Shown here in pieces: positions 37,259-62,026 of a stretch of DNA of 64,000 nucleotides. Within the stretch, counting starts at the first letter, position 1. The number at the start of each line of letters is the position of its first letter. The notes under the pieces are model-generated. The model worked only from the letters and a program-made list of their open reading frames with translations, ran no database searches and was not told the origin of the DNA. Source of the DNA: Bacteroidaceae bacterium. Lineage in GTDB: Bacteria > Bacteroidota > Bacteroidia > Bacteroidales > Bacteroidaceae. The stretch lies in contig JAFWXX010000029.1 of NCBI GenBank assembly GCA_017522915.1, positions 62,001 through 126,000 on the forward strand. The letters run 5' to 3'. The position numbers and the translations under genes were made by a program.

Positions 37259-38908
37259 TCAGCAGAAAATCAGAATCATCATCTGTCCTACAAGTATTCT
37301 CAGGAACATTGCGAGAGGATATACCGTTGCATAGCCTACGGCCGAATCGCCTCCCTTGCACTGCTGGTTGGCGAATGCCAGAGCCGGCGGGTTAGTGCAT
37401 GAGCCCGAAATCACTCCGGCCAGCGTGTTGTACTTTATCCTAAGTATATAACGGCCTGCAAGCCCTGCTATAAGTATAGGCACAACAGTGATAACCGCTC
37501 CGTATAGTATCCACATGTAACCGCCCTTGTTTATGATGCTGTCAACAAAGTCGCCTCCTGCACCCAGGCCCACACAAGCAAGGAACAAGGTTATTCCAAT
37601 CTCCCTTATCATAAGGTTCGCGCTAGTAGTAGTGTATGTGACAACACCCAGTTTTGGGCCGAAGTAGCTGACAAGTATAGCCACAATAAGAGGACCTCCG
37701 GCCAAGCCGAGCTTGAGCGGGGTAGTGATCAGAGTTCCGCTCAAAGGAATGCTTCCCAATACACATCCCAATGCAATGCCTATGAATATCGGTATTAGGT
37801 TCGGGTGGTCGAGGTATCTGCGCTCGTCACCGAACATCTTCTTTATATCGTGTATTGCAGCCTCATGCCCCACAACGGTAATGATGTCGCCAACCTGCAG
37901 GCGGAAACCGGCTGTAGGGGCCAAATCGACACCGGCACGGTGCACGCGTGTGATGTTCACTCCGAACTCTCTTCTTATGTTAAGCTTGCTCAGCTTTGTT
38001 CCGTTAAGCTTAGGGTTGGTGAAAGTAATCTTGCGCGACACCAGTTCCTCGTCAATCTTTATCCACTCCTGCTGTACAGGTACTCCAATAAGCGACACCA
38101 ACCTGCTCTCTATCTCCTTGTCGGCAATCACAAGCACACGGTCGCCTACCTCAAGCCTGCTTTGCGAATTGGCAATGTCGCAGTGGCCTGTTGCCTTGCT
38201 TATTATGCGCGATACAATGAAGTTGAGGTTGTTCCTCTTGCGTATCTCCTCCAGTGCCATGCCGGTAATCTCCTTGTTCGTTACCTCAAGCGACAGACGC
38301 TGTATATCGACATTGCTGCTCTTCTCCTTGTTGAATCTCTTTTCTCCCTTGTAGATGAACTTGATTGCAATTATTGACAGTATGCAGCCTATGACACCAA
38401 GAGGGTAGGCGACACTGTAGCCAAGCGCAATGTTGGAACTGTCGTGCCCGAACATATCCTTGTATGCGGCAGCTGCAGCACCCATTCCCGGAGTGTTTGT
38501 CACAGCACCCGACATTATGCCGGTTATAGTGTCAACGCTCTCGCCTGTCATGAAGATTAGCATCACGGCAGCAAGCACATCGAACAGCACAATTATACAG
38601 GTTATTGTGTTGAGCTTCAGACCGCCCGACATGAAGCTGGAGAAGAAACCGGGGCCCACCTGCAATCCAATGGAATAGACGAACAGTATAAGGCCGAACT
38701 CCTTTACAAAGTGCAGCAGCTCGCCGTCGAGCACCATTCCGAAGTGCGATAGGAGAATACCTATGAACAGCACCCATGTAACTCCAAAAGAGATACCTGC
38801 AATCTTGACCCTGCTCAGATACACACCGACGCCAATAGCGACAGCAAGGATAATCATTGAGTGTGCAACCCCTGAACCGAATAGCAGATTGTTAAAGAAA
38901 TTTTCCAT
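37259..38908 (-). CDS. AspT/YidE-type membrane transporter
   Basis: The protein has 549 residues from the ATG of 'MENFFNNLLFGSG'. It has two sets of transmembrane helices of the AspT antiporter type ('FGLILFVYSIGLQVGPGFF', 'GITLFLACVGLGAGGDFV') that flank two TrkA-C domains in the middle (about 200-370: 'LSKLNIRREFGVNITRVHR', 'LQVGDIITVVG'). The order TM-RCK_C-RCK_C-TM is that of YidE/YbjL/AspT. AspT swaps aspartate for alanine; most homologs have unknown substrates. Signal 'GxxGxxNTPG' is visible as 'MSGAVTNTPGMGAAAA'. It is probably monocistronic. Confidence 0.85.
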   Translation of the reverse strand: MENFFNNLLFGSGVAHSMIILAVAIGVGVYLSRVKIAGISFGVTWVLFIGILLSHFGMVLDGELLHFVKEFGLILFVYSIGLQVGPGFFSSFMSGGLKLNTITCIIVLFDVLAAVMLIFMTGESVDTITGIMSGAVTNTPGMGAAAAAYKDMFGHDSSNIALGYSVAYPLGVIGCILSIIAIKFIYKGEKRFNKEKSSNVDIQRLSLEVTNKEITGMALEEIRKRNNLNFIVSRIISKATGHCDIANSQSRLEVGDRVLVIADKEIESRLVSLIGVPVQQEWIKIDEELVSRKITFTNPKLNGTKLSKLNIRREFGVNITRVHRAGVDLAPTAGFRLQVGDIITVVGHEAAIHDIKKMFGDERRYLDHPNLIPIFIGIALGCVLGSIPLSGTLITTPLKLGLAGGPLIVAILVSYFGPKLGVVTYTTTSANLMIREIGITLFLACVGLGAGGDFVDSIINKGGYMWILYGAVITVVPILIAGLAGRYILRIKYNTLAGVISGSCTNPPALAFANQQCKGGDSAVGYATVYPLAMFLRILVGQMMILIFC

Positions 38909-39025
38909 AATAAACAGCATTTGTTTTTAAATTTTTGCAAAATTACTAAAAAACGGAGTTTGTATTTTTTTGCATTTATGATATGCTGCGATAGTAATTA
39001 TCGATATTGCCGATAGAAAGTATGA

Positions 39026-39137: not shown

Positions 39138-41654
39138 TCATTTCTTTACTTCAAACTTCATTTTTTCTTCTCCGGCCGTTACAAATATAGTGTCTCCCGG
39201 CTGCAGTTCGCCGTCGAGCAGGAGTGCCGAGATTTCGTCTTCAACATAGTTCTGCAGGGCTCGCTTTAGCGGGCGTGCTCCGTACTGTATGTCGTATCCC
39301 TTGTTTGCAAGGAAGTTCTTTGCTTCGGCTGTAAGTTCTATGCTGTAGCCTAGCTCCGTTACACGCTTTACTATCTGTACAAGTTCAAGATCGACGATGT
39401 CTATGATTGCTTCCTTGCCCAGCTGGTCGAAGTTTATTATCTCATCGACACGGTTTAGGAACTCTGGCGCGAAACGCTTGTTGAGTGCCTTCTGTATGAC
39501 GTCGCGCGAGTATTTCTTGTCGCTGGCACGCTCGTCCTTGGCGAAACCTATGCCTGCGCCGAAGTCCTTTAGCTCGCGTGTGCCTACGTTAGAGGTCATT
39601 ATTATCACGGTGTTGCGGAAATCGACTGTGCGTCCATAGCTGTCGGTAAGACGGCCTTCATCCATTACCTGCAAGAGCAGGTTGAATACGTCGGTGTGGG
39701 CTTTCTCAATCTCGTCGAGCAGTACAATGGAGTAGGGGCGTCGGCGCACTCGCTCTGTGAGCTGTCCGCCCTCCTCGTAGCCTACATATCCCGGAGGTGC
39801 TCCGACAAGACGTGACACGGTGAACTTCTCCATGTATTCGCTCATGTCTATGCGTATGAGTGCATCGGCACTGCCGAACATGAACTTTGCAAGCTCCTTT
39901 GCCAGGAGTGTCTTTCCTACTCCGGTGGGGCCGAGGAACATGAATGTGCCTATAGGCTTGTTGGGGTTCTGGAGGCCTACACGGCTGCGCTGTATTGCTT
40001 TGGTTAGCTTCTCGATTGCGTTGTCCTGCGCTATGACCTTGCCGGTGAGCTCGCCCTGCATTCCCTTGAGGCGTGTCCATTCGTCCTGCTGCATGCGCTG
40101 TACCGGAACGCCTGATATCATAGAGACAACACGTGCTATCTCCTCTTCGTTCACGGTCTGTCGGCTTTGTGCAAGGCTCTTCTCCCAGTCGGCTTTCATT
40201 GCAGCCAACTGGTTCTGCAGCTCTTTCTCCTTGTCGCGCATGTTGGCTGCGGTCTCGAAGTCCTGACGCTTGACGGCTGCATTCTTCTCGCTGTTGACAC
40301 TGTCTATCAGAGCTTCCTGCTCCTCAATCTCCTTTGGCACTGTTATGTTGCTGATGTGCATGCGTGCCCCGGCTTCGTCCATTGCGTCTATGGCCTTGTC
40401 GGGGAAGCAGCGGTCGGTTATGTAACGGTCTGTCAATTTGACACACGCAAGCAGTGCTTCGTCGGTATATGTGACATTATGGTGGTTCTCGTAACGCTCC
40501 TTGATGTTCTTGAGGATAGTGTATGTGTCCTCGGTAGATGTGGGCTCTACAAGCACCTTCTGGAAACGGCGTTCAAGAGCTCCGTCCTTTTCTATTGTCT
40601 TGCGGTATTCATCGACTGTGGTGGCTCCGATGCATTGTATCTCGCCTCGTGCAAGAGCCGGCTTGAGGATGTTTGCGGCATCCATTGAACCGGGTGTTGA
40701 GCCGGCACCTACAATGGTGTGTATCTCGTCGATGAAGATGATTATGTTTGGATTGTTCTCCAGTTCTGTTATTATGGCACGCAGGCGTTCCTCGAACTGT
40801 CCGCGGTACTTTGTTCCTGCCACTACAGCTGTCATGTCGAGCGATACGATGCGCTTGTCGAACAGCATGCGCGAGGTCTTTCTCTCAACAATGCGCTGTG
40901 CGAGCCCCTCTACGATGGCCGACTTGCCGACACCCGGCTCGCCTATAAGTATGGGGTTGTTCTTCTTGCGGCGGCTCAATATCTGCGAGATGCGTTCTAT
41001 CTCCTTCTCACGCCCTACAACAGGGTCGAGCTTGCCCTCGCTTGCTGCCTTTGTCATGTCGAAACCGAAGTTGTCGAGGACCGGTGTGTCGTTCGACGGT
41101 TTTGCCTGCTGTGTGCCGGCATAGCTGTGCGCGCTGCCCTGGCTGCCCTTCGGCAAGGTGTCCTCATCGTCGTCGTCCTGGTCGGTGAAACCGAAACCGT
41201 TGCTGATGTTGCTGCTGTCGGGGGTCTTTGACTTTATCGCATCAAAAATCTGAGAATATGTAACATCGTTTGCCTCAAGAATGTCTGCGGCAAGGTTGTT
41301 CTTCTCCTTCAGTATGCCCAGCAGAAGGTGCTCGGCATCGGCAACGGCCTTGAAGCTGCGTGCCTCAAGGGTGGTGAAGCGCAATATGCGTGCCGTGCTC
41401 ATGCTCATCTCGACGTCGGTGCTGTATGGCTGGTCGGCAAGTGATGCATCGGTGCATCTTCTCTCTATCGCTTCCTTGATCTCCTGTATGTTTACGTTCA
41501 TGCTGCCCAATATGTCGAGCGCACACCCTTTTCCTTTGCGTATGATGCCCAGCAACAGATGCTCCGGGTTTATGGTGCGGCTGCGCAAGCGGGTTGCCTC
41601 CTCCTTGCTCAGTGACAGTATTTCGGACATTTTCTGCGAAAATTCATTGCTCAT
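39138..41654 (-). CDS. clpC: ClpC-type AAA+ chaperone ATPase
   Basis: The 838-residue protein has two ClpN repeats (about 5-145), D1 AAA+ with GEPGVGKS and 'VVAGTKYRGQFEERL', a UVR-like coiled-coil insert between the AAA+ domains ('KRQDFETAANMRDKEKEL', typical of ClpC), and D2 AAA+ with GPTGVGKT and 'VVLLDEIEKAHTD'. The UVR motif and length favour ClpC over ClpA or ClpB. It unfolds proteins for ClpP, which is not in this window. An acidic/Ser-rich linker (about 150-185) follows the N-domain. The upstream gap of 248 nt holds the terminator of the RyR operon. Confidence 0.9.
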   Translation of the reverse strand: MSNEFSQKMSEILSLSKEEATRLRSRTINPEHLLLGIIRKGKGCALDILGSMNVNIQEIKEAIERRCTDASLADQPYSTDVEMSMSTARILRFTTLEARSFKAVADAEHLLLGILKEKNNLAADILEANDVTYSQIFDAIKSKTPDSSNISNGFGFTDQDDDDEDTLPKGSQGSAHSYAGTQQAKPSNDTPVLDNFGFDMTKAASEGKLDPVVGREKEIERISQILSRRKKNNPILIGEPGVGKSAIVEGLAQRIVERKTSRMLFDKRIVSLDMTAVVAGTKYRGQFEERLRAIITELENNPNIIIFIDEIHTIVGAGSTPGSMDAANILKPALARGEIQCIGATTVDEYRKTIEKDGALERRFQKVLVEPTSTEDTYTILKNIKERYENHHNVTYTDEALLACVKLTDRYITDRCFPDKAIDAMDEAGARMHISNITVPKEIEEQEALIDSVNSEKNAAVKRQDFETAANMRDKEKELQNQLAAMKADWEKSLAQSRQTVNEEEIARVVSMISGVPVQRMQQDEWTRLKGMQGELTGKVIAQDNAIEKLTKAIQRSRVGLQNPNKPIGTFMFLGPTGVGKTLLAKELAKFMFGSADALIRIDMSEYMEKFTVSRLVGAPPGYVGYEEGGQLTERVRRRPYSIVLLDEIEKAHTDVFNLLLQVMDEGRLTDSYGRTVDFRNTVIIMTSNVGTRELKDFGAGIGFAKDERASDKKYSRDVIQKALNKRFAPEFLNRVDEIINFDQLGKEAIIDIVDLELVQIVKRVTELGYSIELTAEAKNFLANKGYDIQYGARPLKRALQNYVEDEISALLLDGELQPGDTIFVTAGEEKMKFEVKK

Positions 41655-41828
41655 TCCTTCTCCTCCAATTCTTCTTGTGAATAATCGTGTATAGCTTTTC
41701 TTTTTTTCAAATGCGAAGTTAGGGTATTATAGAACCCGTACGCAATATTTTTACATAATCTTTCTTACAAAAAGCGTGCCAAACTATTAATTTTTCGAAA
41801 AAAGTTCACTTCGGTTGAACAAAAATCG

Positions 41829-41876
41829 ACAAGGACGGTGTCTGCTTATGCATTCTGACACGGCCCTTGTCGGTTA
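41829..41876. terminator. Terminator of the RyR operon
   Basis: CGACAAGG-A-C-G-GTGTC pairs with GACAC-G-G-C-CCTTGTCG; the stem begins 27 nt past the stop of the PrsW-RyR gene (stop at 41903) in the minus direction, with T-rich sequence beyond on the minus strand. Confidence 0.7.
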
Positions 41877-41902: not shown

Positions 41903-42973
41903 TTATTCCGATTGCTGATCCTTGCTTATCTTGAATCCCAGCTTCCTTATATATCGCAGGGTTCCGAGAGCCGTGTTCCTGTCATACTCCTTTTCAATCT
42001 CAGGAAGTTCTTCGTACGGTACAAGACAAGGGTGCTGCTTCAGCTCGTCGTTGCGTACCGGCCCAAGAGTCCAGCCCTCGTCCATACGTTCCTTTGCCCA
42101 CACTTCGTGTACGTTCTTTGCTATGAGTTCAACGGCTTCGTCAAGCTCTTCGGGCAGCTGAACGTCGGAAATGTCAACCGGAGCAGGAATGTATCCTTTG
42201 CCAGAAGTGGAATCCGACGCGGATTTCATATCGCAGTCAGGAGCTGCTTCAACTGCTGTAGCTGCTTCTGCTACGGCATTGTCGTGTTCGACGTGCATTC
42301 TTATATGTTTGCTTCCTAATTTCCACATCGTAGGGCATAGCATATAGAATGCTATTGTGAATATTGTCGCCAATTCAGGTACGGTTTCTATTGAGAAAGC
42401 CAGGGTGTCGTATATGCCGTGAGCAAGAATAGGAGCAATGAGTATCATGGCGTTGTTGAAGTCGCGCTTCTCTCTTGAAAAACGTGCAAGAGAGTAATAG
42501 TAGCCCATAAGCACGCCAAAGAAGAAGTGGCCAGGAACTGCGGTCAGTGCACGGGATATGCCTGTAGATATATATTCATCCGGTGAATCGTATAGGTACA
42601 GAAGGTTCTCTATGGCTGCAAAACCCATAGAAACACACACGGCATATACAATGCCGTCCATTCTCTCGTCGAAATGCTTGCTCTTCCTGACAAGCAGCCA
42701 AAGGATGATGAACTTTGCAATCTCCTCCGGTATTGCCGCACCAAGGAACGATATCTTGAGGCCGCCTATGAAGTCTGTCGCCACTTCGGGGTAGAATCCG
42801 CCAAGCAGCAACGGTACCGATATTGCCAATGATAGCGGTACCGACAGCATTCCCAGAAAGAAGGAACTTATCAGCTCGCCCTTAGGCTCTGGGCGGTTCT
42901 TGTCCTTGTTGTAGATATAACAGAGCAGAATGACTGCAGGCAAAAATGAGAGGAATATTATATAGTGGTCCAT
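41903..42973 (-). CDS. PrsW-family intramembrane protease fused to a RyR domain
   Basis: The 356-residue protein's N-terminal 225 residues are about 7-8 transmembrane helices with the PrsW (Abi/CAAX-like) metal motifs: EEIAK (83-87), FAAIEN (118-123), H149 and HGIYD (185-189). After a linker (226-265) comes 'PVDISDVQLPEEL', then a RyR domain (about 285-346) with 'VHEVWAKERMDEGWTLGP', 'HPCLVPYEELPEIEKEYDR' and 'LRYIRKLGFKI'. PrsW cleaves membrane proteins such as anti-sigma factors; RyR repeats are found in Ca-release channels and in bacterial proteins where their ligand is unclear. It is the last gene of a three-gene operon, 22 nt after the RyR zinc-ribbon gene. Confidence 0.85.
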   Translation of the reverse strand: MDHYIIFLSFLPAVILLCYIYNKDKNRPEPKGELISSFFLGMLSVPLSLAISVPLLLGGFYPEVATDFIGGLKISFLGAAIPEEIAKFIILWLLVRKSKHFDERMDGIVYAVCVSMGFAAIENLLYLYDSPDEYISTGISRALTAVPGHFFFGVLMGYYYSLARFSREKRDFNNAMILIAPILAHGIYDTLAFSIETVPELATIFTIAFYMLCPTMWKLGSKHIRMHVEHDNAVAEAATAVEAAPDCDMKSASDSTSGKGYIPAPVDISDVQLPEELDEAVELIAKNVHEVWAKERMDEGWTLGPVRNDELKQHPCLVPYEELPEIEKEYDRNTALGTLRYIRKLGFKISKDQQSE

Positions 42974-42995
42974 CGTGCTTTGGAGTTATTGGCAA

Positions 42996-43454
42996 TTATT
43001 CAAGGTTCATATTCCAGTCTATGTCTAACTTTGCACCGCACTTGTCGCAGAATACCTGGTTGAAGTAAAGAGGTGTCATTATGCCTATTGACTTGCACTC
43101 AGGGCAATGGAACCTTGTGTCGGCTTTGCGTATGCGCTTAAGAAGCTCCTTGTAGAGTTCGGTCTCTTCTCTCTTGATAATGTCGTACCCTAACTTGTGA
43201 AGCAGCTTGAGCGTGTTCATGGCCATGGAACGGTCCATGTCTTTCTCTTTTTCGGAAAGTTCGGAGTATGGCATCATGCATGGGCTCTCTTTTTTCTCGT
43301 CATTCCTCTCCGGGCCATAGCTCCAGCCTTGTGCAATGCGTTCTACTGCCCAAATCTCATGCGCGTTTTCGGCAATAGCTTCGCGCAGTTCTGTCAGTTC
43401 TTCATCCAATTTTACATCAGAGATGTCTATCGGTTGCGGTTTGTAGGTTTTCAT
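42996..43454 (-). CDS. RyR domain protein with C-terminal zinc ribbon
   Basis: The 152-residue soluble protein starts with 'QPIDISDVKLDEEL', nearly the same linker as in the PrsW fusion. The RyR domain (about 29-92) has 'AHEIWAVERIAQGWSYGP', 'PCMMPYSELSEKEKDMDR' and 'LKLLHKLGYDI'. A short helix follows, then a zinc ribbon with C117-x2-C120 and C136-x2-C139. It has no membrane segment, so it probably acts in the cytoplasm as a partner of the two membrane-bound RyR proteins encoded on each side. Spacing is 11 nt from the channel-like gene and 22 nt to the protease gene. Confidence 0.85.
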   Translation of the reverse strand: MKTYKPQPIDISDVKLDEELTELREAIAENAHEIWAVERIAQGWSYGPERNDEKKESPCMMPYSELSEKEKDMDRSMAMNTLKLLHKLGYDIIKREETELYKELLKRIRKADTRFHCPECKSIGIMTPLYFNQVFCDKCGAKLDIDWNMNLE

Positions 43455-43465
43455 AGATATACGGT

Positions 43466-46210
43466 TTAATTGTTTTTGTTCTTGTTATTATACTTCCTGC
43501 ATGCGTAAGGGATTATCCTTGTCAGCTCTCTGTCGTACTCCGAGATATTATAGTCTATTTTGTCCAGTATCTTGTTTGAACAGATGTCAAGGTGCTTGTA
43601 CATGCTCTTCTTTTCCTTTTTTATTGCTTCTGAAGCGTCTTCATCCGGGATTTTTGCACTCTCCTGCTCTTCTGGAGTCAACGGGCTGTAGTGCATCAAC
43701 AGTTGCTCGATGACCCATCTGTTGTGCTCTACAAGGCCAAGAGTCTTTAACTCACCTTCGCTGAAGTCTCCTTCAAGAGGGTTGAATCCTCCGTTTCTTA
43801 TACAGCGTGCCTTGCTCCAGAATGAGTTGATGTTATAAATGTTCGACCATGTCATTGCTTGCTTTGTCTTGCCTTTGGACTGTGGCTCCTGCTCTCTATT
43901 CTCCTTAAGCTTATCGACGTATTCGGACAATTTTACTATATGCTCTATTTTTTTCTCGTAATTGTTTACATCGGAATTGCCGTTCTCTAAAAGCAGCAGA
44001 TATTCTTCTTTCCATTTATTGTACCACTCATCTGTTTCTGCCTTGTTCTCCAGCTTGTATGTTTCTATTCCTAGAATATCGGAAGCAGAAGCCTTTTTGC
44101 TCAGTTTCTTCTCGATACTGCACATGTTGTATGCTATACCGATATATTCCGATATTGTTTCTGCAAGTTCGTTTGCCGAGCAGTCATAGCATTTGTCGGC
44201 CATGCCGAATGCCTTGAGCTTCCCTTTGTATTTCCTGTTGCAGTTAAGATTGTCGATAATCTCAGTGTTGTATCTCTGGTAAACAAGAATCTGAAGCGTG
44301 TTCTTGCTGCTGTATATTGCTCCGGGGAGGTATATTGCAGTTGCGACGGCCCTGTTGTTTTCGGGGTTGCATATAGCAACTGTCAGCTTCGCATTATTGT
44401 CGGCACTGATGTCTGTAAGGTACTTGCGCACGACCTCGCTTTCGATGTTTCCATGTATGAACTCCCATTCAATGTCTATGAAATCTTCTCCGAGATATGT
44501 GCCTTTGAAAGGCGATTTGGAATCCTGGTCGGACAGAGGATTCTTCCAACGGCTCTCTTCGGTCTCAAAGAATATATCGTCTTGTCTTGCTGCATTGACA
44601 TATCTGTGCCTGGAGACAGAGAATAGCTCGCTGTATCTGCTGGTAAAGAAGTCCATCTCCTGTTTCATGTTGGGATCTATAAGGGTGATTCTTGTCCTCT
44701 TTTTCTTCTCTTCGAAGTTGGGATAGTGTGCTATGTGCGCAGCTTCGATTGCCATAGCTGTACCCATACGAGACATTCCTACAATGACAATATGTACATA
44801 CGAATCTTCATTCTCCTTTATTCCGGTTTCGCTTTCCAACGGAATGTAATTGTAACCTTTCTGTTCCGAGAAGAGTGAATTGTTCACGACTACATTCTGC
44901 GCCCACATCTCGTAGTAGTTGAACGGGCGGAATTTTAAACAGCCGGCATTGTCGATGTCGGTAATCTGCATAACATTGAAAGTGGTCTGGTACTCGAACA
45001 TCACATGAACAGTAATCTTATCCTTGTCGTTGGCGGTGCATATGCCGAGCTTTCTTCTTTTTTCAACAGACGACGCTGAACCGTATATGTTGGCAATATG
45101 CCTCATGCAGGTCATGTTCAAGGTGTCGTGGTACGATTCGATGTCATCGTCCCTGGAGTCCTCGCCAAGTATGTATATCTCTTTTGCTGTTTCGGGGTAG
45201 AGGCTCTTGATGTCCTTTACAGATGTCCTGCTGCCGTAACGTACAATTATTTTCTGCTCTTCGTAAATATTGAGCCCGGAGAACAATGTGTCTCTGAATT
45301 TGGCTACGTCACCCGATGTCTGGATTATAATGTAGGGCAATTTCCCGTCATCGCCGGGTTTCAGCAACTGTCTTACAATTCCGGGGGTTACGTCACTGCC
45401 TCCTATGATGATGTAGTGCGGAACCTTGCTGAGTACTCTCTTGTATGGTTCCTGTCCTTTTAGCCATCGTTCCTTGCGGCGTTCAATCCAGCTTATGATA
45501 GAAGTAATCATAAGGCCGTTGAACAGCAGTATTCCCAATGAGGTTACTATGGTTGTCCATATCCTTATCTCATGAGAGGTCAGCTGCTGGTTGCCTGGGT
45601 CAACAAAATGGTAATATGTTGACCAGAACAGTGATGGCGATGCGCTTTTCTCCAGTTCCTCGTTGAATACATCCGATTCATTTATGTTGAATATCATCAG
45701 TATTGCCGTGAAAAGAAACGGCAAGAGGAATACAAGGCTTATTGTCTTTCTGAGGAAATTGCCATGTATAAGATGCCAGTCGAATTTTATACCGTTTGCT
45801 GCAATCCGGCAGGCATAGATGATGTATCCTAAGCATACGTAGCTCAGCAGATAACAGAATGCTCTGTTCAGGTATGTTATACAAGCGTATTCCCTGATGC
45901 CGGCAAGCTCTGTTATCTCATGGTAGTGGATGCATAGGATAGCCGATGCTGCAAAAAAGAACGGAATAATCCACCTGTTTCTTCTGTGGAACTTGCTTTT
46001 GTACAACCCATGTGACTTAAGGAGTGCATGTACTGCTATGGGTACTGTGCTTCCTCCGATGTATAGAAGAAGGTTTGCTATAATGCTGTTGTCGTGCGAT
46101 GCCAATATCCATACAGAAGTAACTCCTACTATTGATAATGCTATATACATTATAATGGCGGGCAACCCCAAGGAGCAGTTATCGCCTGCTGTCTTCTCTT
46201 TTGTTATCAT
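43466..46210 (-). CDS. CASTOR/POLLUX-like membrane channel with two RCK-type Rossmann domains and a C-terminal RyR-like region
   Basis: The protein has 914 residues from the ATG of 'MITKEKTAGDN', next to a -7 box; the longer frame would start upstream of the promoter. About six transmembrane helices (16-242) come first. A segment at about 190-210, 'SLFWSTYYHFVDPGNQ', resembles the pore loop of CASTOR/POLLUX ion channels. Two Rossmann/TrkA-N-like domains follow ('YIIIGGSDVTPGIVRQLL', about 266; 'HIVIVGMSRMGTAMAIEA', about 473). A Lys/Glu helical linker then leads to a RyR-like C-terminus (about 822-906: 'LVEHNRWVIEQLLMHYSPL', 'YDRELTRIIPYA'). First gene of the RyR operon. Confidence 0.75.
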   Translation of the reverse strand: MITKEKTAGDNCSLGLPAIIMYIALSIVGVTSVWILASHDNSIIANLLLYIGGSTVPIAVHALLKSHGLYKSKFHRRNRWIIPFFFAASAILCIHYHEITELAGIREYACITYLNRAFCYLLSYVCLGYIIYACRIAANGIKFDWHLIHGNFLRKTISLVFLLPFLFTAILMIFNINESDVFNEELEKSASPSLFWSTYYHFVDPGNQQLTSHEIRIWTTIVTSLGILLFNGLMITSIISWIERRKERWLKGQEPYKRVLSKVPHYIIIGGSDVTPGIVRQLLKPGDDGKLPYIIIQTSGDVAKFRDTLFSGLNIYEEQKIIVRYGSRTSVKDIKSLYPETAKEIYILGEDSRDDDIESYHDTLNMTCMRHIANIYGSASSVEKRRKLGICTANDKDKITVHVMFEYQTTFNVMQITDIDNAGCLKFRPFNYYEMWAQNVVVNNSLFSEQKGYNYIPLESETGIKENEDSYVHIVIVGMSRMGTAMAIEAAHIAHYPNFEEKKKRTRITLIDPNMKQEMDFFTSRYSELFSVSRHRYVNAARQDDIFFETEESRWKNPLSDQDSKSPFKGTYLGEDFIDIEWEFIHGNIESEVVRKYLTDISADNNAKLTVAICNPENNRAVATAIYLPGAIYSSKNTLQILVYQRYNTEIIDNLNCNRKYKGKLKAFGMADKCYDCSANELAETISEYIGIAYNMCSIEKKLSKKASASDILGIETYKLENKAETDEWYNKWKEEYLLLLENGNSDVNNYEKKIEHIVKLSEYVDKLKENREQEPQSKGKTKQAMTWSNIYNINSFWSKARCIRNGGFNPLEGDFSEGELKTLGLVEHNRWVIEQLLMHYSPLTPEEQESAKIPDEDASEAIKKEKKSMYKHLDICSNKILDKIDYNISEYDRELTRIIPYACRKYNNKNKNN

Positions 46211-46232: not shown

Positions 46233-46240
46233 CAAATATA
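46233..46240 (-). promoter_or_regulatory. -7 box of the RyR operon
   Basis: On the minus strand TATATTTG matches TAnnTTTG, 23 nt upstream of the ATG at 46210. This supports the shorter start and a leader of about 15 nt. No clear TTTG -33 box is seen. Confidence 0.55.
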
Positions 46241-46438
46241 TATTATTTTATGTAAAAAACAGACAGTAGGAGTGATTTTCATTAACTTGCCAATAATTAG
46301 GCATCTGCTTCTTTTTCGGCTCTGTTTCGTTATAGTCTCTGTTTTTTTTATTAATTTCGCAAGTTGAATTGCCTTTGGTGCTTTTGTGTTGCCTGGGCTA
46401 TGTATATTAACAGCAAGACAAATCAATAATTTTATAAT

Positions 46439-48199
46439 ATGTTCCGTACTAAGACTTGTGGCGAACTACGTTTGGCCAATGTTAATGAGAGCGTTACTTT
46501 AAGCGGCTGGGTACAGCGTGCACGTAAGATGGGCGGTATGACATTCGTCGATCTCCGTGACCGTTATGGCATTACGCAGCTTGTCTTCAGCGAGGACGCA
46601 AATGCCGAGTTGTGCGAGAAGGCTTCGCACCTTGGCCGTGAGTATGTAATTCAGGTAACCGGTATCGTGAGTGAGCGTCAGAGCAAGAACTCCAATATCG
46701 CTACCGGCGACATTGAGATAATCGTGAGTGAACTGAATATCCTCAACGAGGCTGCTACGCCTCCGTTCACCATTGAGAACAATACAGACGGCGGTGATGA
46801 CATACGCATGAAGTACCGTTATCTCGACCTTCGCCGTGAGGCAGTGCGCAAGAACCTCGAACTGCGTCACCAGATGACAATGGAGGTGCGCCGTTATCTC
46901 GATTCAATGAACTTCATCGAGGTTGAGACACCTATGCTCATCGCTTCAACGCCTGAGGGTGCGCGTGACTTCGTCGTTCCTTCACGCATGAATCCCGGTC
47001 AGTTCTATGCTCTTCCTCAGAGCCCTCAGCTCTTCAAGCAGCTGCTTATGGTATCGGGCTTCGACCGTTACTTCCAGATAGTGAAGTGTTTCCGCGACGA
47101 GGACCTGCGTGCCGACCGTCAGCCCGAATTCACTCAGATTGACTGCGAGATGAGTTTTGTAGAGCAGGAGGATGTAATCTCTTTGTTCGAAGGTATGGCA
47201 AAGCACCTCTTCAAGACAATACGCGGCGTTGAGCTTACAGAGCAGTTCCCGCGCATGACATGGCACGATGCCATGAAGTATTACGGCAGCGACAAGCCCG
47301 ATACACGTTTCGGCATGGAGTTCGTGGAGCTTATGGACATTATGAAAGGACACGGGTTCGGCGTCTTCGACAGTGCAGAGTATATCGGCGGTATTTGTGC
47401 CAAGGGTGCTGCGACATATACGCGCAAGCAGCTTGATGCGCTTACCGATTTTGTACGTCGTCCGCAAATAGGCGCGAAGGGTATGGTCTATGCACGTGTA
47501 GAGGCCGACGGCACTGTAAAGTCCAGCGTTGACAAGTTCTATACACAGGAAGTCCTTCAGGCAATGAAGGCTGCTTTCAATGCAGAACCGGGTGACCTTA
47601 TCCTCATCCTTAGCGGCGACGATACAATGAAGACACGCAAGCAGCTATGCGAGCTCCGTCTTGAGGTCGGCAGCCAGCTCGGCTTGCGCGACAAGAACAA
47701 GTTCTCTTGTCTCTGGGTGGTAGATTTCCCGCTCTTCGAATACAGCGAGGAAGAGGGCCGTTACATGGCAATGCATCATCCGTTCACTTCGCCGAAGCCT
47801 GAGGATATTCCTCTTCTCGATACAGATATGGGTGCTGTACGTGCCAATGCCTATGACATGGTCATCAACGGTGTAGAAGTAGGCGGCGGTTCAATACGTA
47901 TTTACGACAGCGAACTACAGAACAAGATGTTCGAACTTCTTGGCTTCACTCCTGAACGTGCACAGCAGCAGTTCGGCTGGTTGCTCGATGCCTTCAAGTA
48001 CGGTGCTCCTCCTCATGGCGGTCTTGCTTACGGTCTCGACCGTTGGGTGAGCCTGTTTGCAGGCCTCGATTCAATCCGCGACTGCATTGCGTTCCCTAAG
48101 AACAATTCAGGCCGCGATACAATGATTGATGCACCTTCGGTTCTTGAACAATCGCAGTTGGATGAATTGAACATTCTTGTTAATATTGAAGAGAAGTAA
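46439..48199 (+). CDS. aspS: Aspartyl-tRNA synthetase
   Basis: The 586-residue bacterial-type enzyme has an N-terminal OB-fold anticodon domain ('[23 protein letters not shown]'), class II motif 1 region ('[20 protein letters not shown]'), motif 2 '[19 protein letters not shown]', a GAD insert domain (about 290-410) and motif 3 '[11 protein letters not shown]'. It charges tRNA-Asp; whether it is discriminating or also charges tRNA-Asn cannot be judged reliably by eye. The small membrane-protein gene follows after one base, so the two share a transcript. Confidence 0.95.
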
Positions 48200-61938: not shown

Positions 61939-62026
61939 AAAATGACTGCTCTTTTTTGTCCATTGGGGATGTTCTTCATCCGCGGTAATGGAAAAGTACA
62001 AATAATGGCTAATATTTCTTGTTCTT

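Follow-up and report, generated by a model that had tools for sequence, protein, structure and literature searches.

Do the RyR domains carried by three different proteins of one bacterial operon act as sensors of a common signal, and if so, of which one? The question is raised by three consecutive genes in a stretch of 64,000 nucleotides (hereafter, the window), comprising positions 62,001 to 126,000 of contig JAFWXX010000029.1 from a Bacteroidaceae bacterium (GCA_017522915.1), whose assembly amounts to 2.41 Mb in 60 contigs. From the letters alone, an earlier note had read these genes as an operon for a channel-like protein with two RCK modules and an RyR-like C-terminus (gene 1), a soluble RyR protein with a zinc ribbon (gene 2), and a PrsW-type protease ending in an RyR domain (gene 3), supposing that their association is conserved and that the RyR/RCK parts sense a ligand or an ion and so set off proteolysis by PrsW. 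The three architectures were borne out by profile and fold (table 1); the association holds for channel and RyR genes, the protease being an optional partner, and the signal is likely a nucleotide rather than an ion, as suggested by the ligand residues of the RyR domains and the TIR-encoding neighbors of relatives. Of the two outcomes named by the note as refuting, neither was seen: each of the three proteins has a significant RyR match, by Pfam (genes 2 and 3) or by profile and fold (gene 1), and channel and RyR genes are found together in the genomes searched.

The RyR profile (Pfam: PF02026, cut-off 27.4 bits) matched two of the three proteins significantly, with 121.1 bits (2e-35) in gene 2 and 115.6 bits (1e-33) in gene 3. 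The C-terminus of gene 1 gave no Pfam RyR match; on the evidence of a family profile, a search by fold, and the alignment of four ligand residues, it is an RyR-like domain, which we term divergent because its homology is seen by profile and fold only. The protease part of gene 3 was matched by the PrsW-protease family (Pfam: PF13367) at 125.6 bits against a cut-off of 23.5, and the segments EEIAK, AAIEN, HFFFG, and HGIYD, which we take to be the PrsW motifs, could be read in its sequence; under the PrsW equivalog model NF033739 it scored 132.2 bits, below the cut-off of 225. Searched with the PADLOC models, genes 1 and 3 had no match at E ≤ 1, and gene 2 matched Cas12f alone (0.0044), over the zinc-ribbon stretch.

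Gene 1 is a six-transmembrane channel with two RCK domains. Its AlphaFold2 model exhibits, within residues 16-235, five helices read as transmembrane, a pore helix (194-203), and the last transmembrane helix (213-235), and the motif D204-P-G-N207 starts right behind the pore helix, with D conserved in 66, G in 70, and N in 66 of 78 aligned sequences (gene 1 included). According to PMC6697748, the predicted filter of CASTOR is AD265S(A)GNHA, the channel is highly Ca2+ selective, and D265N abolishes activity. The corresponding VDPGNQ of gene 1 agrees in D, G, and N, with Pro in the place of Ser/Ala and Gln in that of His; judged from this motif, the pore looks CASTOR/DMI1-like rather than like a TVGYG K+ pore. 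The tandem RCK gating ring that follows the pore is common to CASTOR/POLLUX/DMI1, GsuK, and Slo channels, and the first of these families gave both the best profile match and the top-ranked (tied) structural match. The Castor_Poll_mid profile (Pfam: PF06241), a check proposed by the earlier note, had no match in gene 1 at E ≤ 1. Among 395 genomes of the phylum, only the own genome (G000) yielded a full-length match to gene 1, and nine weaker matches were proteins of ~630-670 residues, matched over pore and RCK1 only; Castor_Poll_mid was present in all five tested of these ~630-residue relatives. Gene 1 is therefore CASTOR-like and not classed as CASTOR: the order of a pore and tandem RCK, and D-x-G-N at the filter, are shared, whereas Castor_Poll_mid is missing, a C-terminal RyR domain is added, and the Ca2+ selectivity of the plant nuclear channels is, for gene 1, a possibility.

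Across 101 genomes (the own and 100 relatives), the channel was found in 25 and RyR above the cut-off in 25, with 17 genomes holding both, 8 the channel only, 8 RyR only, and 68 neither (odds ratio 18, P 7e-8). The RyR tally excludes G008 and G060, in which nothing but the C-termini of the channels matched, at scores under the cut-off; a count for the genus alone, from which G043 was missing, enters no result here. When one genome per species was scanned for the channel, 330 relatives were returned (loci and genomes carry our own L and G handles), of which the best 80 were used for locus counts, so that nearer relatives are over-represented; L152, considered a duplicate of L140, was excluded, leaving 79, and several of the 80 are the same contigs as loci in other fetched sets. 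A separate RyR gene lay in the channel's same-strand run at 56 of the 79 loci, adjacent to the channel at 34, and anywhere in the fetched stretch at 59. RyR was also found fused to the N-terminus of a channel (L169, 836 residues, same contig as L134), to PrsW (the window, L053, and L054), and to a second RyR domain in a single protein of 816 residues (L168). Nine of the 79 loci have PrsW in the same run as the channel, and per genome it is associated with neither partner; where PrsW is a gene of its own (11 loci), it lies within 136 nucleotides of a same-strand RyR gene in seven. The conserved core is thus channel plus RyR gene, PrsW is optional, and the set of channel, adaptor, and protease represents a single variant within a larger modular family.

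The pore itself can be exchanged. In genome G040 (L057), which holds its RyR genes at the same chromosomal site as the window, the gene after RyR-Zn (the gene 2 type) encodes an MscS-type channel domain (Pfam, 1.4e-8), followed by the gene for a soluble protein that matched RCK and the C-terminus of the gene 1 type. At this locus, the pore is exchanged and the RCK/RyR regulators are retained, which argues for ion conduction as an output. The MscS homolog recurs, by homology to the Pfam match of L057, in L062, L171, L174, and L084. At L057:7044-9382, L062, L171, and L174, the MscS-type gene stands beside a separate soluble protein with a gene-1-type C-terminus, and L046:9102-13052 encodes an RyR-RCK channel of 1316 residues with a C-terminal FGE-sulfatase domain.

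The residues of the RyR pocket point to the kind of ligand. Phage PF02026 proteins cleave or sequester the cyclic ADP-ribose (cADPR) isomers 2'cADPR and 3'cADPR, and the ligand residues H75, W78, H100, and D117 of one of them, RyDEP, are common to human RyR3 R12 (PMC13232231, a preprint of May 2026). Equivalents of all four occur in genes 1 and 3, whereas gene 2 keeps H, W, and D with Ser at the H100 position, where its family mostly has Thr. Classes and profiles of RyR proteins derive from our own open reading frame caller and our own hidden Markov models rather than from curated genes. The H75, W78, and D117 equivalents were kept in 106 of 106 bacterial RyR domains of the loci (identical sequences, and no others, removed). 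Stand-alone domains have His as the H100 equivalent in 56 of 58 cases and PrsW-RyR proteins in 3 of 3, and Thr stands there in 12 of 15 RyR-Zn proteins and 15 of 20 of a class with 290-400 residues. At this position, the animal repeats R1 and R2 have His and Asn, respectively. In a quick tree, the RyR-Zn and 290-400-residue classes (34 of 35) stood apart from the stand-alone/PrsW class, at a weak support of 0.62.

The neighbors of relatives point in the same direction. Of the 183 non-core run proteins with at least 150 residues, 147 were scanned with Pfam, which gave 26 matches to TIR_2, 10 to nSTAND1, 6 to SIR2_2, at least 3 to ThsB_TIR, and at least 7 to Peptidase_M48, making TIR the commonest domain of non-core partners. 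With our own TIR profile, 31 of 182 run genes were matched, as opposed to 14 of 602 genes in the flanks (P 2e-11); 21 of the 79 loci had a TIR gene in the run. On sequence evidence, a TIR enzyme class, an RyR sensor domain, and a channel of the cation type are neighbors at these loci. The own genome has five TIR matches, four over the cut-off, all on other contigs than the window, and a signal made in trans is therefore possible. Chosen neighbors further gave Pfam matches to CHAT, FGE-sulfatase, vWA, and CreD and a weak trypsin-like match, and PADLOC on 81 neighbor proteins gave scattered matches, among them MADS, DrmC, SAVED-TIR, Aga-TIR, and IetA.

We therefore favor, tentatively and with somewhat less than even confidence, a reading in which an ADP-ribose-type signal binds the RyR pockets, gates the channel, and regulates PrsW, probably in defense. 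The operon would be a ligand-responsive membrane signaling unit with the RyR domains as its common sensor. Those of the gene 1 C-terminus and of gene 3 retain the full nucleotide pocket (H-type). That of gene 2 is devoid of the phosphate-contacting His (T/S-type) and, if animal repeats 1 and 2 are a guide, probably has an H-type domain as its partner, such that genes 2 and 3 may act like an R1-R2 pair. The signal would contain adenine and would most likely be an ADP-ribose isomer from a TIR enzyme whose gene lies at another place in the genome. Its binding would gate the CASTOR-like RCK channel, leading to an influx of cations, possibly Ca2+, or to depolarization, and would release or recruit PrsW to cut a membrane or regulatory target.

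Several observations weigh against this proposal. No TIR gene stands in the run at 58 of the 79 loci, and TIR_2 had no match in the window, whose operon accordingly has no TIR gene. Twenty of the 79 channel loci, some cut by contig ends, have no separate RyR gene; the presence of PrsW across the 101 genomes is associated neither with RyR (P 0.32) nor with the channel (P 0.13); and G020 holds an RyR-Zn/PrsW-RyR pair where the channel search gave no match. The loci are related by descent, so the P values overstate independence. PMC13232231 also reports tests of eight RyDEP homologs, six of which bound but showed no cleavage and two of which showed no binding, and hence the pocket residues do not fix function. 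Lastly, the animal repeats grouped with the T-type domains in the quick tree (0.80), which makes the likeness of R1/R2 to gene 3/gene 2 one of analogy, not orthology.

A bolder version of the ADP-ribose proposal, which we rate as rather unlikely, is that bacteria would have an ADP-ribose-gated, RyR-regulated Ca2+ channel of the CASTOR type, opened when a TIR-made cADPR isomer binds to RyR domains, with RyR-linked proteases or sigma regulators responding. In animals, as stated in the review PMC8295901, ADP-ribose acts on TRPM2 and cADPR on RyR; were the bolder version true, the animal axis from cADPR through the ryanodine receptor to Ca2+ would have a bacterial immune counterpart with the same sensor domain.

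Among the rivals, the one that survives best, doubtful as a whole and yet of appreciable weight, is an envelope or ion-homeostasis system without a defense role, in which the channel, PrsW, and the ECF sigma/anti-sigma genes of relatives would sense ionic or membrane stress and RyR would read ATP/ADP/AMP. PrsW is known from anti-sigma cleavage. A gene of ~190 residues before the 290-400-residue RyR class matched TIGR02937 in the two cases tested (4e-9 and 4e-6, below the curated cut-off) and is, by sequence, a predicted ECF sigma factor, with homologs in 17 of the 79 loci; the N-terminus of the RyR protein behind it reads to us as anti-sigma-like, and one such protein tested gave a weak C39-peptidase match (5.7e-4). 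ECF sigma, RyR anti-sigma-like, and PrsW genes are consecutive in L169, L171, and L172, and the animal Repeat12 binds adenine ligands (PMC13232231). Homeostasis would nevertheless fit poorly with the TIR, STAND, and CHAT neighbors of relatives, and with a patchiness unlike that of housekeeping genes (PF02026 in 43 of 301 genomes of the family, and a site between aspS and clpC that is mostly too short). As observations on this gene pair, the ECF sigma gene was seen at L098:12565-13137, L036:161-733, and 20 further loci, mostly directly before the RyR anti-sigma-like protein, and some of these RyR proteins have a zinc ribbon, a form of RyR-linked sigma circuit.

Quite unlikely, in our view, is that the RyR domains serve to pair proteins, bringing channel, adaptor, and protease together, and that their pocket is vestigial. 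RyDEP is a dimer via helices 1 and 4 and the animal R12 a two-fold symmetric repeat pair (PMC13232231), and many different scaffolds carry RyR; the ligand-contact residues, however, are among the most conserved positions, the divergent gene 1 domain included. Very improbable is a role of the RyR proteins as sinks, that is, RyDEP-like hydrolases or sponges that end a TIR signal as an off-switch or counter-defense. The catalytic H/D dyad residues of RyDEP are retained in the bacterial domains, and phage relatives cleave or sequester such signals (PMC13232231), but RyR domains fused to channel and protease fit a regulatory sensor better, and T-type domains have no H100. A chance neighborhood of unrelated RyR genes, for which the eight genomes with one partner on either side could speak, is hardly credible in the face of the odds ratio, the 56 loci with both in one run, and the RyR fusions to channel, PrsW, and a second RyR protein.

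Compared with known systems, the operon shares the PF02026 domain and the H-x-x-W + H + D ligand residues with phage RyDEP and the anti-Thoeris RyR sponges (PMC13232231), and the small stand-alone form resembles the ~97-residue RyR genes of relatives; those phage proteins are counter-defense, whereas the domain is here bacterial and joined to a channel, a zinc ribbon, and a protease. A word search in that preprint's main text gave no words beginning with "membrane" or "bacteroid", though a B. thetaiotaomicron RyR-like structure is named. As for Thoeris, relatives have a TIR protein in the same run (three matching ThsB_TIR) and phage RyR proteins bind Thoeris signals, but the Thoeris layout of a TIR/ThsB gene and an effector in one operon is not that of the window, where no SLOG or macro-domain effector was found in the operon and the output would be channel or protease. 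In Bacillus subtilis, PrsW-RsiW-SigW is a pathway of PrsW-regulated proteolysis; its PrsW domain is common to both, and some relatives have PrsW directly after ECF sigma and RyR anti-sigma-like genes, whereas the window's PrsW bears its own RyR domain with no sigma gene in the operon. The animal Repeat12 also ties RyR repeats to a large cation channel and has one repeat with His and one without, like genes 3 and 2, but its pore differs, its repeats are tandem in one chain rather than separate subunits, and they do not pair off with genes 3 and 2 in the tree. The stand-alone bacterial RyR domain BtRR of B. thetaiotaomicron (3nrt, 4n05, and 6uag), known as structure only, was among the structural matches of genes 2 and 3. 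Burroughs and colleagues reportedly surveyed nucleotide-centric conflict systems in 2015. We rate the operon as a variant of nucleotide-signaled membrane-effector systems. The earlier note knew of no system joining channel, adaptor, and protease; in open-licence full texts, none of the matches listed joins bacterial RyR with PrsW, channel, or TIR genes.

The action of cADPR on the ryanodine receptors of animals, its existence as well as its mechanism, is a matter of long debate, and bacterial RyR genes in one run with a CASTOR-like channel (and TIR in relatives) would make the question of the RyR ligand testable in small proteins. With such loci, the range of outputs conceivable for TIR signaling would grow to include ion channels, PrsW proteases, and ECF sigma circuits. 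They may also provide a host context for the Thoeris-blocking phage RyR proteins, and they bear on how a domain most familiar from the Ca2+-release channels of animals arose.

Table 1. Features of the operon and its flanks, in window coordinates.
Feature	Position	Strand	Basis
Gene 1, RCK channel, 914 residues	43466..46210	-	
Gene 1 membrane part, residues 16-235	45506..46165	-	AlphaFold2 secondary structure
Gene 1 filter-like motif D204-P-G-N207	45590..45601	-	Sequence and AlphaFold2; CASTOR filter compared
Gene 1 RCK1, residues 265-442	44885..45418	-	Profile and structure searches
Gene 1 RCK2, residues 471-703	44102..44800	-	Structure searches
Gene 1 divergent RyR domain, residues 783-913, with H829, W832, H873, D893	43472..43864	-	
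Gene 2, RyR-zinc-ribbon adaptor, 152 residues	42996..43454	-	
Gene 2 RyR domain, residues 4-92	43179..43445	-	Pfam
Gene 2 C4 zinc ribbon, residues ~116-139	43038..43109	-	
Gene 3, PrsW-RyR fusion, 356 residues	41903..42973	-	
Gene 3 PrsW protease domain, residues 29-209	42347..42889	-	Pfam, NCBIfam
Gene 3 RyR domain, residues 261-350, all four ligand residues kept	41924..42193	-	Pfam
Promoter-like TCTG-N19-TATATTTG, 23 nucleotides 5' of the first ATG	46233..46263	-	Sequence
Terminator-like hairpin, then UUUUU	41827..41872	-	RNA folding
aspS, operon flank	46439..48199	+	Named by domain content
clpC, operon flank	39138..41654	-	Named by domain content

The operon layout agrees with the earlier description, with gaps of 11 (genes 1/2) and 22 nucleotides (genes 2/3), a promoter-like box, and a hairpin after gene 3. 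The box conforms, with one mismatch, to the Bacteroides -33/-7 type, as judged by what we presume to be its consensus; the exact two-box pattern had no match at this site, and sigma-70-like sites showed no excess upstream of gene 1. The 116 nucleotides folded 3' of gene 3 gave -31.7 kcal/mol (z -4.2), and the hairpin was absent from the list of a simple terminator scan.

The unit is an accessory and patchily distributed module, probably of anti-phage or stress-response type. Of 44 genomes of the genus searched, 19 have aspS and clpC on a single contig, facing each other at a distance of up to 6 kb. In 15 of these, the gap of 316-541 nucleotides could not accommodate the module, in one it measures 1.6 kb, and in three (the window's genome, G037, and G040) it contains RyR genes; RyR genes also adjoin clpC in G004, G020, and G035, whose aspS lies on a different contig. 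No channel relatives were found in viral contigs. The nearest named relative of gene 1 (57% identical) comes from a water-buffalo metagenome-assembled genome titled Bacteroidaceae (L073), and a Bacteroidaceae bacterium of the ruminant gut is thus the probable source of the window.

Further loci from the PF02026 scan of family genomes were hand-picked, partly by unusual open-frame sizes, and are not a random sample. The fullest version of the module among the loci examined is L172 (G692:C1:1105000-1124000, a one-contig assembly of 3.55 Mb), where TIR, TIR, channel, ECF, anti-sigma-like RyR, PrsW, RyR, and RyR genes form one stretch. In L116 (Phocaeicola barnesiae DSM 18169; also L180), a channel, an M48-like gene with a zinc-ribbon end, an RyR gene, and TIR genes were found. 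Proteins of 720-750 residues in which Pfam matched nothing but a C-terminal RyR domain recur in RyR loci (L036:1900-4101, L105:14867-17038, and L131:12445-14676), and a channel-RyR pair in a metagenome-assembled genome titled Rickettsiales (L147) is perhaps mis-binned Bacteroidales DNA. Downstream of clpC in the window, an Asp-Al_Ex permease with TrkA_C domains (37259-38920, minus strand) is probably a conserved chromosomal neighbor outside the module, because a homolog of similar size also follows clpC in G037 (L033).

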